Below, piece by piece: positions 21,998 through 31,487 of a DNA stretch of 64,000 nt. Made by a program: the position numbers and the translations under genes. Under the pieces are notes generated by a model. The model was not told where the DNA came from. It saw only the letters and a program-made list of their open reading frames with translations, and ran no database searches. The stretch covers positions 62,001 to 126,000 of the forward strand of contig NZ_JAAQPI010000012.1 in assembly GCF_011683955.1 (NCBI RefSeq). The letters are read 5' to 3'. The DNA is from Pseudomaricurvus alkylphenolicus. Its GTDB lineage: Bacteria > Pseudomonadota > Gammaproteobacteria > Pseudomonadales > Cellvibrionaceae. Within the stretch, counting starts at the first letter, position 1; each line of letters starts with the position of its first letter.

Positions 21998-23008
21998 TCA
22001 GCTGGCCTTCATCAGGGCCAGAGTGTTGTCCAGCATGCGATTGGAGAAACCCCACTCATTGTCGTACCAGGCCATCACTTTAACCATGCGGCCATTGACG
22101 CGGGTCTGGGTGGCATCGAAGCTGGATGAAGCCGGGTGGTGGTTAAAGTCCACACTCACCAGAGGCTCTTCGCTGTAGTGCAGAACACCCTGCAGCGGTG
22201 CCTTGGAGGCCGCTTCGCAAATCAACTCGTTAACCTCTTCGACGCTGGTCTCGCGAGAGGCGATAAAGTGAAAATCCACCAAAGACACATTGGCCGTTGG
22301 GATACGTACCGCCATACCGTCCAGCTTACCGTCGAGTTCCGGCAGTACCAGACCTACCGCCTGAGCAGCACCAGTCTTGGTTGGAATCACAGACTGAGTG
22401 GCGGCGCGGGCACGGTATATATCGGAATGATAAACATCGTGCAGCTTCTGGTCGTTGGTATAGGCGTGCACGGTGGTCATGGCGCCCTGCTCAATACCCA
22501 GACCGTCGTTCAGCACTTTGGCCACCGGTGCAAGGCAGTTAGTGGTACAGGAGGCGTTGGAAATCACCTGACTGTCGGCTGTCAGCACATCGTGGTTGAC
22601 GCCATAAACAACAGTGGCGTCAACGTCCTTGGCAGGCGCCGAAACGATCACTTTCTTGGCGCCGGCTTCCAGATGGGCAGCGGCTTTTTCGCGACAGGTA
22701 AACAGACCGGTACACTCATACACCACGTCCACGTCGAGATTTCCCCAAGGCAGTTGACGGGGGTCGCGCTCGCTGACGGTCAGAATGCGGTCTCCGTTAA
22801 TCACCAGGGCATCGTTATCAACGCTTACCTCGGCGGCAAAGCGACCGTGCACGGAATCGTACTTGGTCAGGTGTGCATTGAATTCTGTATCACCCAGATC
22901 ATTGATGGCGACGATCTTGATGTGCTCTCGCTGGCCGGACTCGTAAAGTGCCCGAAGTACATTGCGACCGATACGGCCATACCCGTTAATTGCTACTCGA
23001 ATTGTCAT
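21998..23008 (-). CDS. gap: Glyceraldehyde-3-phosphate dehydrogenase, type I
   Basis: A 336-residue NAD-dependent enzyme. The N-terminus [18 protein letters not shown] is the Rossmann NAD site, the catalytic cysteine is in [13 protein letters not shown], and the His partner is in [13 protein letters not shown] at 23008 is chosen because AGGGTG lies six bases upstream; an ATG two codons earlier is too close to that site. It follows eda after a 229-base gap that holds two small hairpins (23172-23187 and 23188-23210), so it may have its own promoter. It completes the lower branch from the aldolase product glyceraldehyde 3-phosphate. Confidence 0.95.
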
Positions 23009-23237
23009 AGTCATCACCCTATTACAGTTATCAGTGAGTTTGTCTCTTGCACCTTGTCCTAGGGCGAGCCGTTATATTCAGCTCTTTTTATAATGCAGAT
23101 TCGGGAACAGCCTGTCCCCGGCACTGTTTGCCTGCTCGACTTTCTTTACTACGGGAATCGATGCGACGAATGCCGGTTTTAACCGGCGGCACCACCCTCC
23201 TGGCGGTGCCTTGGATTTTCTACGAGATGGGGGCGAA

Positions 23238-25858: not shown

Positions 25859-26566
25859 TCAGGGTGCCCAGTAAACTTCTACCGGCACCTGCTCCTGCTG
25901 CAGAAACAGGCTCACCGGCGTGTCTTCTACAGAGGTGTTATTCTTGGCTTCCTGGTACACCTGCCATTTATCCTCTCCGGTGATCAGCAACACCAGCGCC
26001 TGACTTTGCAACAAGCTCCAAGGCGTCATGGTCATGCGTTCGGTATAGTCTCCCGTCACTTTGGAAGGGATGGCAGTAATAGCCGCACAATGTTGCTGAG
26101 CATCCAATGCGCGGGCCAGACCTTGGGCGTGAGGGAACAGAGAGGCTGTGTGGCCATCGGGTCCCATTCCCAGGAGGCTCAGGCTGTAGGGCGCGGGTAA
26201 GGTGGCGCACTGAGCATTACACTCAACCTCACCCGCTAAAGCAGTTTCGGCAGGATTCTTCATGCCGCTGAAGCCAACATCGCTGGCACGGTTTTGCACC
26301 AGTGTTTCACGCAGCAGCCGCTCGTTACTGGCCTGGTGATCACTCTCAACCCAGCGCTCGTCAACCAGACCCACGCTGATGTTGTGCCAGGGCAGATCCG
26401 CTTGTGACAGCTGACGATACAAAGGCCCCGGTGTGGAGCCACCGGATAGCAACAGGCTGGCCTTGCCGCTTTGCTGCAGATCGTTTTCCAGCGCTGCACT
26501 GATACGATCAAACAGACTGGCCAGCAGTGCTTGGCGATCTTCGAAACGATGCTCAATGATCGTCAT
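25859..26566 (-). CDS. pgl: 6-phosphogluconolactonase
   Basis: A 235-residue hydrolase of the NagB/DevB fold that opens 6-phosphogluconolactone. Signatures are [15 protein letters not shown] and [16 protein letters not shown]. The start codon overlaps the zwf stop by four bases (ATGA), which implies translational coupling. It joins zwf and edd in the Entner-Doudoroff series. Confidence 0.94.
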
Positions 26567-28044
26567 AGTTTACGACCTCGCTGACTGCCACCGTTGTTAT
26601 GCCAGGCACGCTTGTCGCTGTGCAACAGCGCGGCCGATGCGTCTGGGCCCCAACTGCCGGCCTCGTAGGCCTGCACCGGCGTACCGCACTCTTTCCAGGC
26701 GCTAATAATGGGATCCACCCAGGCCCAGGCCAGATCCGCCTCATCGCGGTGGGCAAACAGGCTCAGGTCATTTTGGATCACGTTCAGCAACAGACGCTGG
26801 TAGGCGTCACTGTGAATATTGGAGAAGGTCTCAGCGAAGTTCAGATTCAACGGTACCTGCTGCAGGCGCATATCAAACTGGTTCAGCTCTTTGGCCATGA
26901 CCGTCAACTGGATACCTTCGTCCGGCTGCAAACGCATCACCAGCCGGTTGGCTGACAAGTGGCCGGTGCTGTTGTCGAACACATTGTGGCTCAGCGGCTT
27001 AAACTGAATCACAATTTCAGCGCAACGCTGGCGCAGACGCTTACCGGTGCGGAAGTAGAAAGGCACACCGCTCCAGCGCCAGTTGTCGATGTGAGCCTTG
27101 ATAGCGACAAATGTTTCCGTTTGACTGTCGCGACCCAGCTCATCCAGATAACCGGGTACCGACTCGCCCTTCATCATGCCTTCGACGTATTGGCCACGTA
27201 CCGTGTGGCTCTGCACCTCATAACCGGTAATGGGTCGCATTGCTTGCAATACTTTGAGTTTTTCCGTGCGAATACTGTCCGCCTGCATTTTGTGTGGCGG
27301 CTCCATGGCCACCAGACACAACAACTGCAACAAGTGATTCTGAATCATATCGCGCATGGCGCCGGCCTGATCATAAAACGCCGTGCGCCCTTCCAGACCC
27401 ACCTCTTCAGACAGACTGATCTGCACGTGATCGATGTACTTGCCATTCCAGAGAGGCTCGAACAGGATGTTGGCAAATCGCAGCGCCAACAGGTTCTGAA
27501 CCGTCTCTTTACCCAGGTAATGATCGATTCGGAAAATGTGGTCTTCCGGGAAGTATTGAGCCACCAGTGCGTTGATCTCGTCGGCGGACTCACGGTCATA
27601 ACCGAGCGGCTTTTCCAGCACCACGCGGGAGTTATCCGAAATCAACCCAAAGCCACTCAACTGCTCACAGGTGGCACCGTAGAGACTGGGCGGCATCGCC
27701 AGATAAAAGACCCGGTCACGCTCTGGGCATTCGCTCAATGGATTCGCCAACTGCTCCCAGGCCTGGTCCGCCTGAGTCACGTCCAGGGCAACCACACTGA
27801 TACGCTTACTGAACACCTGCCAGTGGGACTCGGCACTTTCGCCGTCCTTTAGCTGGTTGTGGAGCCAATCGTGAATTTTGGCCTTCTCCAACTCTTCAAC
27901 TTCGGCGGAGCGGGCGGTTAAAAAGATACGTGCGGATTCGGGAAGATGGCCGGCGACTTCTGAACGATACAACGCCGGCAGCAATTTGCGGAGGGACAGG
28001 TCTCCCAGACCGCCAAAGATGACAATGTCGAAATCCTGAGTCAT
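26563..28044 (-). CDS. zwf: Glucose-6-phosphate 1-dehydrogenase
   Basis: A 493-residue enzyme oxidising glucose 6-phosphate to the lactone with NADP. The nucleotide loop is IFGGLGDLSLRKLLPAL (with GGLGDLS in place of the usual GASGDLA), and the substrate site is FRIDHYLGKETVQNLLALRF, containing the catalytic RIDHYLGK. It is the first gene of the series and is divergent from hexR. The predicted promoter is about 190 bases upstream of the start codon, giving an unusually long leader. Confidence 0.95.
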   Translation of the reverse strand: MTQDFDIVIFGGLGDLSLRKLLPALYRSEVAGHLPESARIFLTARSAEVEELEKAKIHDWLHNQLKDGESAESHWQVFSKRISVVALDVTQADQAWEQLANPLSECPERDRVFYLAMPPSLYGATCEQLSGFGLISDNSRVVLEKPLGYDRESADEINALVAQYFPEDHIFRIDHYLGKETVQNLLALRFANILFEPLWNGKYIDHVQISLSEEVGLEGRTAFYDQAGAMRDMIQNHLLQLLCLVAMEPPHKMQADSIRTEKLKVLQAMRPITGYEVQSHTVRGQYVEGMMKGESVPGYLDELGRDSQTETFVAIKAHIDNWRWSGVPFYFRTGKRLRQRCAEIVIQFKPLSHNVFDNSTGHLSANRLVMRLQPDEGIQLTVMAKELNQFDMRLQQVPLNLNFAETFSNIHSDAYQRLLLNVIQNDLSLFAHRDEADLAWAWVDPIISAWKECGTPVQAYEAGSWGPDASAALLHSDKRAWHNNGGSQRGRKL

Positions 28045-28222: not shown

Positions 28223-28291
28223 TTTAATTGAGTTAAATTATAACCCCCTAAATCCGACAAAAACAACGGTGTAATTTTAATTTAATTAAAT
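28223..28291 (-). promoter_or_regulatory. zwf promoter with two HexR-like operator palindromes
   Basis: On the minus strand: TTGTTT (28261-28266), 18 bases, TATAAT (28237-28242). One AT-rich palindrome, TTTAATTGAGTTAAAT on the plus strand (28223-28238), overlaps the -10 box and start site. A second, TTTAATTTAATTAAAT (28276-28291), lies just upstream of the -35 box; the starts are 53 bases apart. Published HexR sites in related bacteria are AT-rich palindromes around TGTAATTAAATTACA, and hexR is adjacent, so HexR binding is likely. A near copy of the whole arrangement is at 29734-29801. Confidence 0.7.
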
Positions 28292-28408: not shown

Positions 28409-29254
28409 ATGCTTTTAACCCGTCTGAAACACGAACTGGACAGCCTCAGTAAATCCGAACGCCGCATCGCCGAGGTGATTCTGGCCGACCCGGAAGCCGC
28501 AGTGCATGCCACCACCGCCGAAATCGCCCGCCAGGCCCAGGTCAGCGACCCCATGATCTCCCGCCTGTGCAGGGGCCTGGGCTGTAAGGGATTCCCTGAA
28601 TTTAAGGTACAACTGGCCCAGAGCCTGGCCAAAGACACCTCCTATGTGACCCGATCAGTGTCGATTAACGACAATGCCGATACCTACGTGAATAAATTGA
28701 TCAGCGCCAACCAGGGGGCTTTGGAGTACCTGCGCAAGGAGCTGGATACGGAGAGCATCGAAGCAGCGGTTGACGTCCTCGATGCCGCCAAGCGGATTGA
28801 GATCTTTGGCATGGGAGGCTGTTCCTCTATTGCCCAGGATGCCCAGCACAAATTATTTCGCCTCGGCACCCCCTGCATCGCCTACGAAGACAATCTGAAA
28901 CAGCGTATGGCCGCTGCTGCTGCCGATACCGATACCGTGGTTCTGTTTATCTCCTTTACCGGCCGCACCCACGCCACAGTGGAAACCGCCGAGACCGCCA
29001 AAGCCGCCGGTGCCAAGGTGGTGGCCATTACAGACCCAAAATCGCCACTGGCCAATATTTGCGATCTGGTCATTACCTCCGGCAGTGAACTGGAAGACAC
29101 CACCATCTATGTGCCAATGACCACCCGGATCATGATTCTGACCATCGTCGATATCCTGGCAACGGGACTGGCCCTGCGCCGCAGCCCGGAGATTGATGAA
29201 CACCTTAAGAAGATTAAGGAAAGCCTGGATAACACCAAGGCTGAGAAGAAATAA
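28409..29254 (+). CDS. hexR: HexR-type transcriptional regulator (RpiR family)
   Basis: A 281-residue protein: an N-terminal HTH_6 domain (LKHELDSLSKSERRIAEVIL, VSDPMISRLCRGLGCKGFPEFK) and a C-terminal SIS phosphosugar-binding domain (IEIFGMGGCSSIAQDAQHKL, FISFTGRTHATVETAETAKAAG, ITSGSELED). HexR represses or controls central sugar genes and is released by 2-keto-3-deoxy-6-phosphogluconate. The divergent position to zwf and the flanking AT-rich palindromes support this name. The start is preceded by AAGG. Downstream comes a large nested inverted repeat rather than a simple terminator. Confidence 0.93.
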   Translation: MLLTRLKHELDSLSKSERRIAEVILADPEAAVHATTAEIARQAQVSDPMISRLCRGLGCKGFPEFKVQLAQSLAKDTSYVTRSVSINDNADTYVNKLISANQGALEYLRKELDTESIEAAVDVLDAAKRIEIFGMGGCSSIAQDAQHKLFRLGTPCIAYEDNLKQRMAAAAADTDTVVLFISFTGRTHATVETAETAKAAGAKVVAITDPKSPLANICDLVITSGSELEDTTIYVPMTTRIMILTIVDILATGLALRRSPEIDEHLKKIKESLDNTKAEKK

Positions 29255-29326
29255 CCCCCCACCAAAGCGTTTTGGCTTCAAATTAACATTGAGGCAAATA
29301 ACTCCGTATACCGCGGTGTTGGCGGT

Positions 29327-29462
29327 GGTCGGGGCCTTGTTTTCGGAGCATCAAAGAGGAGCGCCGAAAGAGCCCAAAAGACCGGCGTTTTTTGCCGGGC
29401 TTTTGGGTGACTGAGGGAACCCCGGAGGGGCGCCCGACAGCTCCGAAAACAAGGCCCCGGCC
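29327..29462. repeat. Large nested inverted repeat downstream of hexR
   Basis: An outer stem of 20 perfect pairs (29330-29349 with 29440-29459; left arm CGGGGCCTTGTTTTCGGAGC), extendable by three more pairs, encloses 90 bases. Inside lies a second hairpin, 29373-29386 with 29394-29407 (CCCAAAAG and CTTTTGGG outside CCGGC/GCCGG, with a T-rich loop). No repeat-family copy is seen elsewhere in the window. It may be a transcript-end structure, a folded RNA or the remnant of a small mobile element. Confidence 0.75.
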
Positions 29463-29542
29463 GCCGCATGTGGCACCGACCCCTTCGACAACTTCAAGAA
29501 TATCGACCAGCCCAGCTAGTCCAAGACTCATAAATCACAAAC

Positions 29543-29574
29543 AAAAAAAAGGCGCCTCCCCAAAGGGCGGCGCC
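29543..29574 (-). terminator. Rho-independent terminator of the candidate small RNA
   Basis: GGCGCC arms (29551-29556 and 29569-29574) extended by CCC/GGG, a small CAAA loop, and eight consecutive T on the minus strand. It could also end read-through from panP. Confidence 0.88.
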
Positions 29575-29741
29575 GGAAGCCACAAATTTACAGGACTGTA
29601 AACAGTGCAGAGACAAGAACATCGGTTGCGTCGCCCGCCCAAGCCGTGAATCCCGGGCCGACGAACTGGTGGATCGTCACTACCCACCGCAATTCGCTCA
29701 GTTAAATCAAGCCAGATAAGCAAGCAATCACAATTTAACTG
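29543..29741 (-). ncRNA. Candidate HexR-controlled small RNA (about 200 nt)
   Basis: A minus-strand unit delimited by a good promoter (GTGACA, 18 bases, TAGTAT at 29748-29777) and a textbook terminator (29543-29574, eight T). Nothing in between looks like a gene: the one long frame (62 codons) runs through the terminator hairpin. The promoter is flanked by the same two AT-rich palindromes as zwf, so the transcript would respond to the same regulator. A further half copy of the palindrome (TTTAACTGAG on the minus strand) lies near 29697-29706 inside the transcript. I know of no named RNA with this sequence; the call rests on structure only. Confidence 0.55.
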
Positions 29742-29801
29742 AGTTAAATACTACCCCACGACAAACCCTTTTGTCACCCCCTAAATTTAATTTAATTAAA
29801 T
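29734..29801 (-). promoter_or_regulatory. Second HexR-like promoter, near copy of the zwf promoter
   Basis: Plus-strand palindromes TTTAACTGAGTTAAAT (29734-29749) and TTTAATTTAATTAAAT (29786-29801), starts 52 bases apart against 53 at zwf. The -10 box TAGTAT is at 29748-29753 and the -35 box GTGACA at 29772-29777 on the minus strand, spacing 18. The first palindrome touches the -10 box and start point exactly as at zwf. It lies in a region between two convergent 3-prime gene ends, where no protein gene needs a promoter. Confidence 0.65.
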
Positions 29802-29855
29802 ATTCACAAAGAAAAGTGCGACCCCGACAAAGCATCGGGTCACAACAGATCAAAC

Positions 29856-31487
29856 TCAGAGACTATCGATATCCGCCAGCAAGGCCTGAATTTCCGGGTG
29901 TTCAGCCAACTCCAGCTGCTGCTCCAGCACCTGATCCAACACCTCATGGTCCGTCAACGGGTTCGCCAACACCACCCGAAACACAGTGATCACCTCATCA
30001 CCATAACGATGGCAGTCCACCCGCGTACGAGACACAAATGTCTTACCCGCCGCACGCTGAGCTTTCTGGATACGACTGGTTATGCGATCCAGCACCGCAT
30101 TGATCTTCTGCTTCACCTCAGGGAGCTCAGCCTGCAAGCGCTGCTGCAAAGACGCGGGGCAATAGCGATACCCCAGGATGTTCAACCTGGGTTCCACCAC
30201 CAACTCGAAATCCGGATGGGCATCAATCGCTGCCGCAAAATACGCCGCCTTGTCCATCCCCTGGTCTATCAGCAGCTCATAACCCTTGCGGCCAATAATA
30301 TTGAGCCCCGCATGCACCAACAGCGCCATACCGGGGCGCGAACCCTCCAGCGTATGACTGCCCAGATCCTTGGAGCCCTTACGGATAATGTACTCCGCAT
30401 GATGCTCAATACTGTTGAGCGTGCCCGGCTCCTTGAACAGCACCATGCCGGCACCCATGGGAACATAAAACTGCTTGTGTGCGTCGATGGTGACAGAATC
30501 AGCCCGTTCGATCCCCTTCAGCAATGACCGGTGCTTATCCGAAAACAGCGTCGCACCACCCCAGGCCGCGTCCACATGAAAATGCGCTCCGAGCTCTTCA
30601 CTCAAATCGGCCAGCTCATCCAGAGGGTCGACACTGCCGGTTTCCGTAGCGCCGGCAAGACCGACAACCGACAGAATACCCATCCCCTCTTCCTGCAGCT
30701 GCGCAGCGCGTTCCCTCATCGCCAGCATGTTGACTCGATAATCCCCATCGGTATCGATGGCGATCAAGTTATCCCGACCAACACCCAGCAGATCCGCGGC
30801 TTTGGCGAGCGAATAATGTCCACGGCGGGATACCAGAATAGCCAGCCCCTTGAGGTTGGCCTGCTGCAAAGCACCAAAGAGCCCTTTGCGGGCGATGTTA
30901 CCTTCGCCCAGCAAGCGGTTACGGGCCGACCAAAGTGCCGTGATATTGGCCACAGTACCACCGGAACAAAAGGCCCCTAACGCGTATTCTGAATCATGCA
31001 ACCACTGCTGATAAAAGCCGTCTTCGGCCTGAAAAATCAGGCGATGCAGCATACCCAGCACCTGGCGTTCCAGCGGCGTAAACGCCTTTGAGGTTTCCAC
31101 CTTTACCAGGTTCTGGTTAAGGGCCGTCACAATCTTCGACAGCGGCAACATAAAGTACGGCAGCGCCGAGGTCATATGGCCCACAAATCCTGGCGAGGAG
31201 GTATGCACCGACTGGGACACCAGATCCTTGAGGATAAAGTCCGTGTAATCAGAGACGTAATAAGGCTGCTCGGGGATGACGGCACTGTTGAACGCCGTCT
31301 CGATCTCAGACAGATCTTTCTCTATCGCCACAATATGCTGACGCAGAAAGCCGTCAAGATTATTGGAGATGGCCGCATCGATCTGGGCCAGGGTGGCACC
31401 GCTGGATTCGGGAATGGTGAAGATACGCTGCAGGCTTTCCAGATTGGCCTGCGCCTGAGCCATGGTCGGCCCTGATTGTTCTGCCAT
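29856..31487 (-). CDS. panP: PLP-dependent aspartate 1-decarboxylase, PanP type
   Basis: A 543-residue group II pyridoxal-phosphate decarboxylase. The PLP lysine is in TIDAHKQFYVPMGAG; FCSGGTVANITALWSARN and FHVDAAWGGATLF are the other cofactor contacts. The length and the N-terminal stretch (FVGHMTSALPYFMLPLSKIVTALNQN) fit the PanP family, a replacement for PanD that makes beta-alanine from aspartate for coenzyme A synthesis. Glutamate or diaminobutyrate decarboxylase is the main alternative; PanP is a family-based assignment. A promoter TTGCAC, 18 bases, TATTAT is seen at 31519-31548. Confidence 0.78.
   Translation of the reverse strand: MAEQSGPTMAQAQANLESLQRIFTIPESSGATLAQIDAAISNNLDGFLRQHIVAIEKDLSEIETAFNSAVIPEQPYYVSDYTDFILKDLVSQSVHTSSPGFVGHMTSALPYFMLPLSKIVTALNQNLVKVETSKAFTPLERQVLGMLHRLIFQAEDGFYQQWLHDSEYALGAFCSGGTVANITALWSARNRLLGEGNIARKGLFGALQQANLKGLAILVSRRGHYSLAKAADLLGVGRDNLIAIDTDGDYRVNMLAMRERAAQLQEEGMGILSVVGLAGATETGSVDPLDELADLSEELGAHFHVDAAWGGATLFSDKHRSLLKGIERADSVTIDAHKQFYVPMGAGMVLFKEPGTLNSIEHHAEYIIRKGSKDLGSHTLEGSRPGMALLVHAGLNIIGRKGYELLIDQGMDKAAYFAAAIDAHPDFELVVEPRLNILGYRYCPASLQQRLQAELPEVKQKINAVLDRITSRIQKAQRAAGKTFVSRTRVDCHRYGDEVITVFRVVLANPLTDHEVLDQVLEQQLELAEHPEIQALLADIDSL

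Follow-up and report, generated by a model that had tools for sequence, protein, structure and literature searches.

The minus strand at 29543-29801 of the window, a 64,000-nt stretch of the 8.9-Mb genome of Pseudomaricurvus alkylphenolicus (G000), probably carries a small-RNA gene that is controlled by HexR and whose product pairs with the leaders of gap and fba. This reading is based on DNA homology, conservation, the rarity of the double boxes at its promoter, and predicted pairing compared with controls; from these we infer transcription, HexR binding, processing, use of Hfq, and targeting together with its sign. A promoter, a conserved and mostly unpaired seed, and a T-run terminator are all present as sequence features. 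The RNA core is carried by G000 and by three congeners, taken to be Aestuariicella hydrocarbonica (G002), the MAG SAT230 (G003) and A. albida (G004); the genus non-carriers are G001 and G005.

Double palindromes and the candidate HexR promoter

Two HexR-type palindromes mark the promoter region, TTTAATTTAATTAAAT at 29786-29801 and TTTAACTGAGTTAAAT at 29734-29749. The upstream one is also found upstream of pgi2, described below, in each of the three congeners. The other double palindrome of the window lies in the zwf/hexR intergenic region (28223-28291). The palindromes start at 28223 and 28276 and at 29734 and 29786, giving spacings of 53 and 52 nt, and the operator arrangement at 29734-29801 is the same as that at zwf/hexR. 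An earlier note on this DNA had pointed out these two pairs, placing their members 52-53 bases apart, and the observation was confirmed: allowing up to one mismatch, the palindrome occurs at only four sites in the 64 kb (0.00 in shuffled sequence). The exact two-box pattern, with a gap of 32-44 nt, was found at two places each in G000, G002, G003 and G004, at one place in G001 and at none in G005. This count covers exact matches in the six genus genomes, leaving out weaker box variants, and a reversed two-box control gave no match in any of the six. A search of the whole 8.9-Mb G000 genome placed its two double boxes at zwf/hexR and at 29734-29801.

A sigma-70-like promoter, GTGACA-18-TAGTAT, is predicted on the minus strand at 29748-29777. 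It is one of three matches in 1.85 kb, where shuffled sequences give 1.8, and is therefore weak when taken alone. Its layout is common to nine double-box promoters from five genomes. In all nine the last base of the -10 hexamer (4 to 6 of 6 matches) coincides with the first base of the inner box; the -35 element is TTGT-like or GTGACA, with a spacer of 17 or 18 nt. The downstream palindrome lies, as the earlier note had it, on the -10 edge and the putative start point. The same note had described the promoter as a duplicate of the one at zwf; it is more than that, being the pgi2 promoter in the three congeners.

The window encodes an RpiR-family HexR beside zwf, both genes passing their model cut-offs: hexR at 28409-29254 on the plus strand (NCBIfam NF008451, 322.7 bits, cut-off 296) and zwf at 26563-28044 on the minus strand (TIGR00871, 553 bits, cut-off 400.6). 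Counting against the HexR reading, the TTGT/ACAA half-sites of the Pseudomonas HexR motif (TTGT-N7-8-ACAA) are absent from the boxes, which read TTTAAYTNARTTAAA. Boxes upstream of hexR are of the TGTAATTNARTTACA type in G005, G033 and G043, mixed in G034 and TTTAAYTNARTTAAA in the carriers, a series that is consistent with motif drift without proving it. HexR motifs also differ among gammaproteobacteria (PMC5343134). Because of this variation and of the series of boxes upstream of hexR, we infer that the promoter at 29734-29801 is under HexR control.

Other features flank the unit. The upstream neighbour is panP (29856-31487, minus strand; TIGR03799, 845 bits, cut-off 606.1), and a hairpin seen by eye at 29820-29843, after the panP stop codon and lacking a good T-run, may end panP transcription before the small-RNA promoter. 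Directly after hexR is an inverted repeat (29322-29467) with 28-nt arms that are 93% complementary and 90 nt apart. Its right part (29400-29483) is found at 80-87% identity in at least 15 other places in G000. The repeat is reminiscent of a MITE-like or dispersed palindromic element and possibly serves as the hexR terminator.

A conserved RNA core and the pgi2 gene

When 29400-29900 was used as a query against 38 genomes, matches were found in five: G000, the three congeners, and G014, where 33 bases match the repeat beside the RNA unit. Each congener match lies directly downstream of hexR. In these loci zwf and hexR diverge, and hexR is followed, in the opposite orientation, by the conserved element, pgi2 with the double-box promoter upstream, and panP. 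The pgi2 gene encodes a further glucose-6-phosphate isomerase and shares 47-52% identity with the remaining pgi copies in the genus; the boxes are absent from all six of those loci. G002, G003 and G004 have two PGI matches each and G000 has one, at another location. In a pattern scan of one genome per species across 84,980 species, which may omit G000 itself, the three contigs matched were those of the three congeners.

Homology between the window unit and the pgi2 units falls into two blocks: 26-71 aligned nt at the promoter, and 78-91 nt at the end of the unit. Between these blocks the window has a 111-nt leader (29623-29733, minus strand) that occupies the place of pgi2 in the congeners. 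Neither pgi2 nor the other sequences compared match the leader convincingly. A pgi2 remnant within it was considered and rejected, every tblastn match having an E value of 0.4 or worse. The earlier note had suggested looking for the segment 29543-29741 next to hexR in related genomes; in the three congeners the last 79 nt or so and the promoter are conserved and the leader is not.

The conserved core comprises 79 nt (29543-29621, minus strand) and is homologous to the 3' end of the congeners' pgi2 units. It consists, in order, of an invariant 18-mer, a hairpin, the invariant 8-mer UGUGGCUU, a GC-rich terminator and U8. The 18-nt segment, UGUUCUUGUCUCUGCACU at 29604-29621, is the proposed seed, and its first 11 nt are unpaired in predicted folds. 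Conservation and folding both point to the core hairpin (29580-29610), UUUACAG..CUGUAAA closed by CUGCA/UGUGG. The seed (18/18) and TGTGGCTT (8/8) are identical across the four carriers. Fold z-scores of the four cores range from -2.7 to -4.9 against shuffles; the full 199-nt unit folds weakly better than shuffles (z -1.5). Compensatory changes are confined to the terminator stem (3 of 20 pairs overall) and the inner helices hardly vary, which was counted against the small-RNA reading.

The intrinsic terminator proposed in the earlier note (29543-29574, minus strand), a GC stem with a U8 tail, emerges from folding and is maintained with compensatory changes in the relatives. A terminator pattern scan, which gave four matches against 2.8 in shuffles, missed it. 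Because the promoter and terminator scans are near chance and the latter misses this terminator, the case rests on comparison.

The same note had seen no credible gene in the unit, and this was upheld: the open reading frames touching it encode only 41-69 aa, the longest on the transcript strand being one of 62 aa with a TTG start that spans 29535-29723. That the transcript encodes a small protein is barely credible, since this frame has no Shine-Dalgarno sequence visible by eye and 1-nt indels between species fall within the conserved core.

A covariance model of the core detected 4 of 144 family genomes, namely the four used to build it, with E values of 6e-18 to 2e-20 and all within one genus. 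Strict filters were used in this search and a divergent copy after rhaI went unreported, so distant relatives of the core may be missed. The divergent copy is in G002: about 70 nt past the end of the L-rhamnose isomerase coding sequence (rhaI, TIGR02629), 16 of the 18 seed nt (TGTTCTTGTCTCTGCA) appear again, followed by a different hairpin and terminator of their own. It lies at about 25793-25850 of contig C3 (L072/L104), upstream of a DeoR-family-like regulator gene. An exact seed 14-mer had eight matches in the 144 family genomes, five of them the elements and three apparently chance; the reversed pattern gave none in every row listed. The three matches in other genera (L100, L101 and L106) were judged to be chance because by eye no terminator follows and two of the three lie inside open frames, of 419 and 179 aa.

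The element lies within a 3' UTR in G002, G003 and G004 (that of pgi2), as does the second copy in G002 (that of rhaI); in the window genome no open reading frame precedes the core on its promoter. From these comparisons we read 29543-29621 as a segment that would be the 3' end of the pgi2 mRNA in three congeners and a free-standing RNA in the window genome. The relatives lend good support to the idea of a HexR-linked small RNA, as first proposed in the earlier note, with the corrections that the RNA corresponds to a pgi2 3' end and that only about 79 nt plus the promoter are conserved.

The unit may instead be a relic in which pgi2 was deleted and its promoter joined to its terminator, leaving a transcribed but functionless segment. 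The single PGI match in G000 and the position of both flanking blocks, exactly where they flank pgi2 in relatives, would be expected from such a deletion. However, the seed and TGTGGCTT have stayed identical beside a dissimilar leader, the terminator stem carries compensated changes, and G000 still has the predicted gap and fba sites; we regard a functionless relic as unlikely. The small RNA might instead have arisen free-standing, with pgi2 later inserted between promoter and RNA in the common ancestor of the three congeners. This is a real possibility, though one we lean against as a whole, and it overlaps with a HexR-controlled small RNA: the function is the same and the history opposite. 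The leader has no trace of pgi2, and with G001 and G005 as outgroup G000 branches outside (G003,(G002,G004)) with a support of 76 in a tree of hexR, zwf, fba and alaS and of 79 with alaS only. Against this, the hexR tree joins G000 with G003, a first four-gene tree with panP in place of alaS gave a support of only 48, and a clean insertion that separates an RNA from its promoter is presumably rarer than a deletion. In the four-gene trees zwf was missing for G001. Because G000 branches outside the other three, a loss of pgi2 in G000 takes as many events as a gain in the other carriers, and on the sequence comparison the two appear about equally likely.

Predicted pairing with gap and fba

The gap gene (GAPDH; 21998-23008, minus strand; TIGR01534, 420 bits, cut-off 367.2) is the last gene of the row zwf-pgl-edd-eda-gap. 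Its leader contains a predicted target site for the seed, AGGTGCAAGAGACAAA at 23039-23054 on the minus strand, which spans -46 to -31 relative to the start codon (ATG, 23008). The motif AAGGTGCA(A/T)GAGACA is present in the gap leaders of all four carriers, where the predicted site starts 44-46 nt before the ATG and stops 24-31 nt before it. Predicted energies of the duplex between seed and gap leader are -18.5, -22.0, -24.3 and -22.3 kcal/mol in G000, G002, G003 and G004, respectively, and among gene-start windows (-100 to +30) gap ranks 5/336, 0/263, 0/285 and 0/279.

For fba the corresponding energies are -16.0, -15.2, -16.4 and -20.0 kcal/mol. Its ranks are 28/336, 29/263, 12/285 and 0/279 in the same windows and 19/336, 18/263, 7/286 and 0/280 in narrower windows (-40 to +21). 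The fba pairing is modest in G000 and G002 (best 6-11%) and strong in the other two carriers. The predicted site covers the ribosome-binding region and is retained in the other three carriers through G-U-compatible changes. Background windows sample about 4.5 to 9.5% of each genome and contain errors, as gene starts were called by a simple rule (longest open reading frames, best Shine-Dalgarno sequence among candidate starts).

Shuffled seeds were used as a control. With the four genomes summed, none of 500 shuffles was as good as the seed at gap and none of 500 at fba, compared with 90 of 500 at pgi1. In a narrower window 0 of 600 shuffles were as good at fba, and 1 of 600 when G000, the genome in which fba was discovered, was left out. 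Both targets were selected post hoc, fba from 25 inspected non-self matches and gap from seven window genes, and the four carriers are not four independent tests because the genomes are related. Among the seven window genes tested gap stood out (-18.5, 0.9%), and the energy for panP (-16.0, 5.7%) equalled that for fba. The mean for fba (-16.9) was the lowest of 62 orthologue clusters drawn from sampled stretches and loci, four of which span all four genomes; a two-genome cluster reached -16.8.

Pairing was also assessed in genomes that lack the element. The fba pairing is unremarkable in the non-carriers G001 and G005. Six of seven non-carrier gap leaders (genes 60-75% identical) are unremarkable as well; the seventh, in G029, is low at -19.2, which was counted against the prediction. 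Two more distant gap paralogues within carriers (L165 and L215) likewise show unremarkable pairing. In the four carrier genomes AGACAAGAAC, the exact complement of 10 seed nt, shows no enrichment (37 matches against 51 for the reversed sequence). Of the 37 matches 30 were inspected, and five of these are the elements themselves. Three of the remaining 25 have a likely start codon no more than 40 nt away; they belong to fba in G000 and to a TonB receptor in each of G000 and G002.

Two further candidates were rejected, pgi1 as a conserved target and the TonB receptors as a class. At pgi1 (L057, G000 contig C34), about 68 nt upstream of the start, the leader can form 16 bp with one mismatch (-21.6 kcal/mol, rank 0/336). 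The pgi1 leaders of the other carriers lack strong seed pairing, and shuffled seeds did as well in the 90 of 500 cases given above. Perfect 10-11-nt seed complements occur at TonB-dependent-receptor-like starts in G000 (L071, C1:240559) and G002 (L088, C33:420222). Of 309 first-look candidates for TonB-receptor plug domains in G000, 150 were scored, giving a count of at least 150. As a class, 30 receptors of G000 do not differ from background (p = 0.086).

The core might also act only in cis, as a terminator or mRNA-stabilising 3' end for pgi2 or, in the window genome, for panP read-through. In favour of this, a strong intrinsic terminator closes the core, which in three species sits at the 3' end of an mRNA. 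A terminator has no need, however, of the invariant 18-mer, of which 16 nt recur after the unrelated rhaI with a different hairpin, nor of seed-specific complementarity to gap and fba, and we consider this explanation very unlikely.

Proposed mechanism and known systems

Pseudomonas HexR releases DNA when KDPG rises. In the mechanism we propose, a HexR dimer on the box at 29734 would cover the -10 edge and the start and, together with the box at 29786, would block the promoter. An influx of sugars into the Entner-Doudoroff pathway would raise KDPG and release HexR from the promoter, and a transcript of about 200 nt could run to the terminator at 29543. The functional RNA would be the 3' portion of about 79 nt, either released by processing or active inside the longer transcript; in the three congeners the same RNA would form the 3' end of a pgi2 mRNA transcribed from a promoter of this type. 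The seed, UGUUCUUGUCUCUGCACU, is predicted to pair with the gap leader and with the ribosome-binding site of fba. Hfq, which is encoded in all six genus genomes, probably assists. Repression at fba is likely because the predicted site covers the Shine-Dalgarno region. At gap, regulation of either sign is possible because in minimum-energy folds the Shine-Dalgarno sequence is paired, by eye, with upstream bases in three of the four leaders. In G000 (window about 23008-23100), G002 and G003, the gap Shine-Dalgarno UAGGGU(GA) can pair with an upstream ACCCUA/GCCCUA, and in these predicted folds the proposed small-RNA site sits between the two partners. The RNA would couple induction of the Entner-Doudoroff pathway to the triose-phosphate steps of glycolysis and gluconeogenesis.

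More tentatively, and in our judgement a little short of evenly balanced, the element may represent a new clade-specific class of seed-sharing small RNAs from the 3' ends of sugar-isomerase mRNAs (pgi2 and rhaI). The window member would stand alone on a KDPG-responsive HexR promoter and link Entner-Doudoroff induction to gap and fba translation. If true, this would provide a natural experiment in which one RNA can be compared in the presence and absence of its parent gene. One RNA that would be an mRNA tail in three species and free-standing in a fourth makes it testable whether tail RNAs outlive or precede their parent genes. HexR is known as the transcriptional switch of the Entner-Doudoroff pathway, and an RNA arm would extend its control to mRNAs without HexR sites.

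Rfam gave no match at gathering score in the 64 kb, only weak ones. The best of these, the Betaproteobacteria toxic small RNA RF02278, shares a UGUCUC start, a hairpin and a terminator. Membership was rejected at 23.9 bits against a gathering score of 50, and neither the rhaI copy nor any of the three congener loci gave a reported RF02278 match at E values up to 5. As far as the literature was searched (HexR, 3'-UTR small RNAs, Cellvibrionaceae small RNAs and Hfq, and small RNAs at gapA and fba), no HexR-controlled small RNA came up. HexR regulons (PMC5489143, PMC5343134) comprise Entner-Doudoroff genes and, as here, have HexR beside zwf with boxes in the zwf/hexR intergenic region. In the portions available, the targets they name are protein-coding, with no RNA among them, and the boxes are TTGT-N7-8-ACAA rather than TTTAAYTNARTTAAA. 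Bns1 of Neisseria meningitidis (PMC4423775) resembles the proposed RNA in being a glucose-responsive small RNA with sugar-regulator genes around it. It is described there as negatively controlled by a GntR-family protein and as regulated like the wild type in a hexR mutant.

The closest parallels are small RNAs derived from the 3' UTRs of metabolic mRNAs, such as SdhX and RsaG (PMC9438474) and one from glutamine synthetase (PMC9731577). As the available text of these sources presents them, they share with the present RNA a short length, an end in the parent's terminator, a conserved seed, a parent in central metabolism or sugar-phosphate uptake, and targets, here predicted, in a neighbouring pathway. 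They differ in that the parent here is a pgi paralogue with a HexR-type promoter, and in that the window genome lacks the parent open reading frame, with the RNA alone on the promoter and its processing putative. There is a precedent in MalH and MicX of E. coli and Vibrio cholerae (PMC9438474), where one position holds a 3'-end-derived RNA in one case and an RNA with its own promoter in the other. That review, in its accessible part, reports no common targets for the two, whereas the RNA described here has an invariant seed and predicted gap and fba sites in four species.
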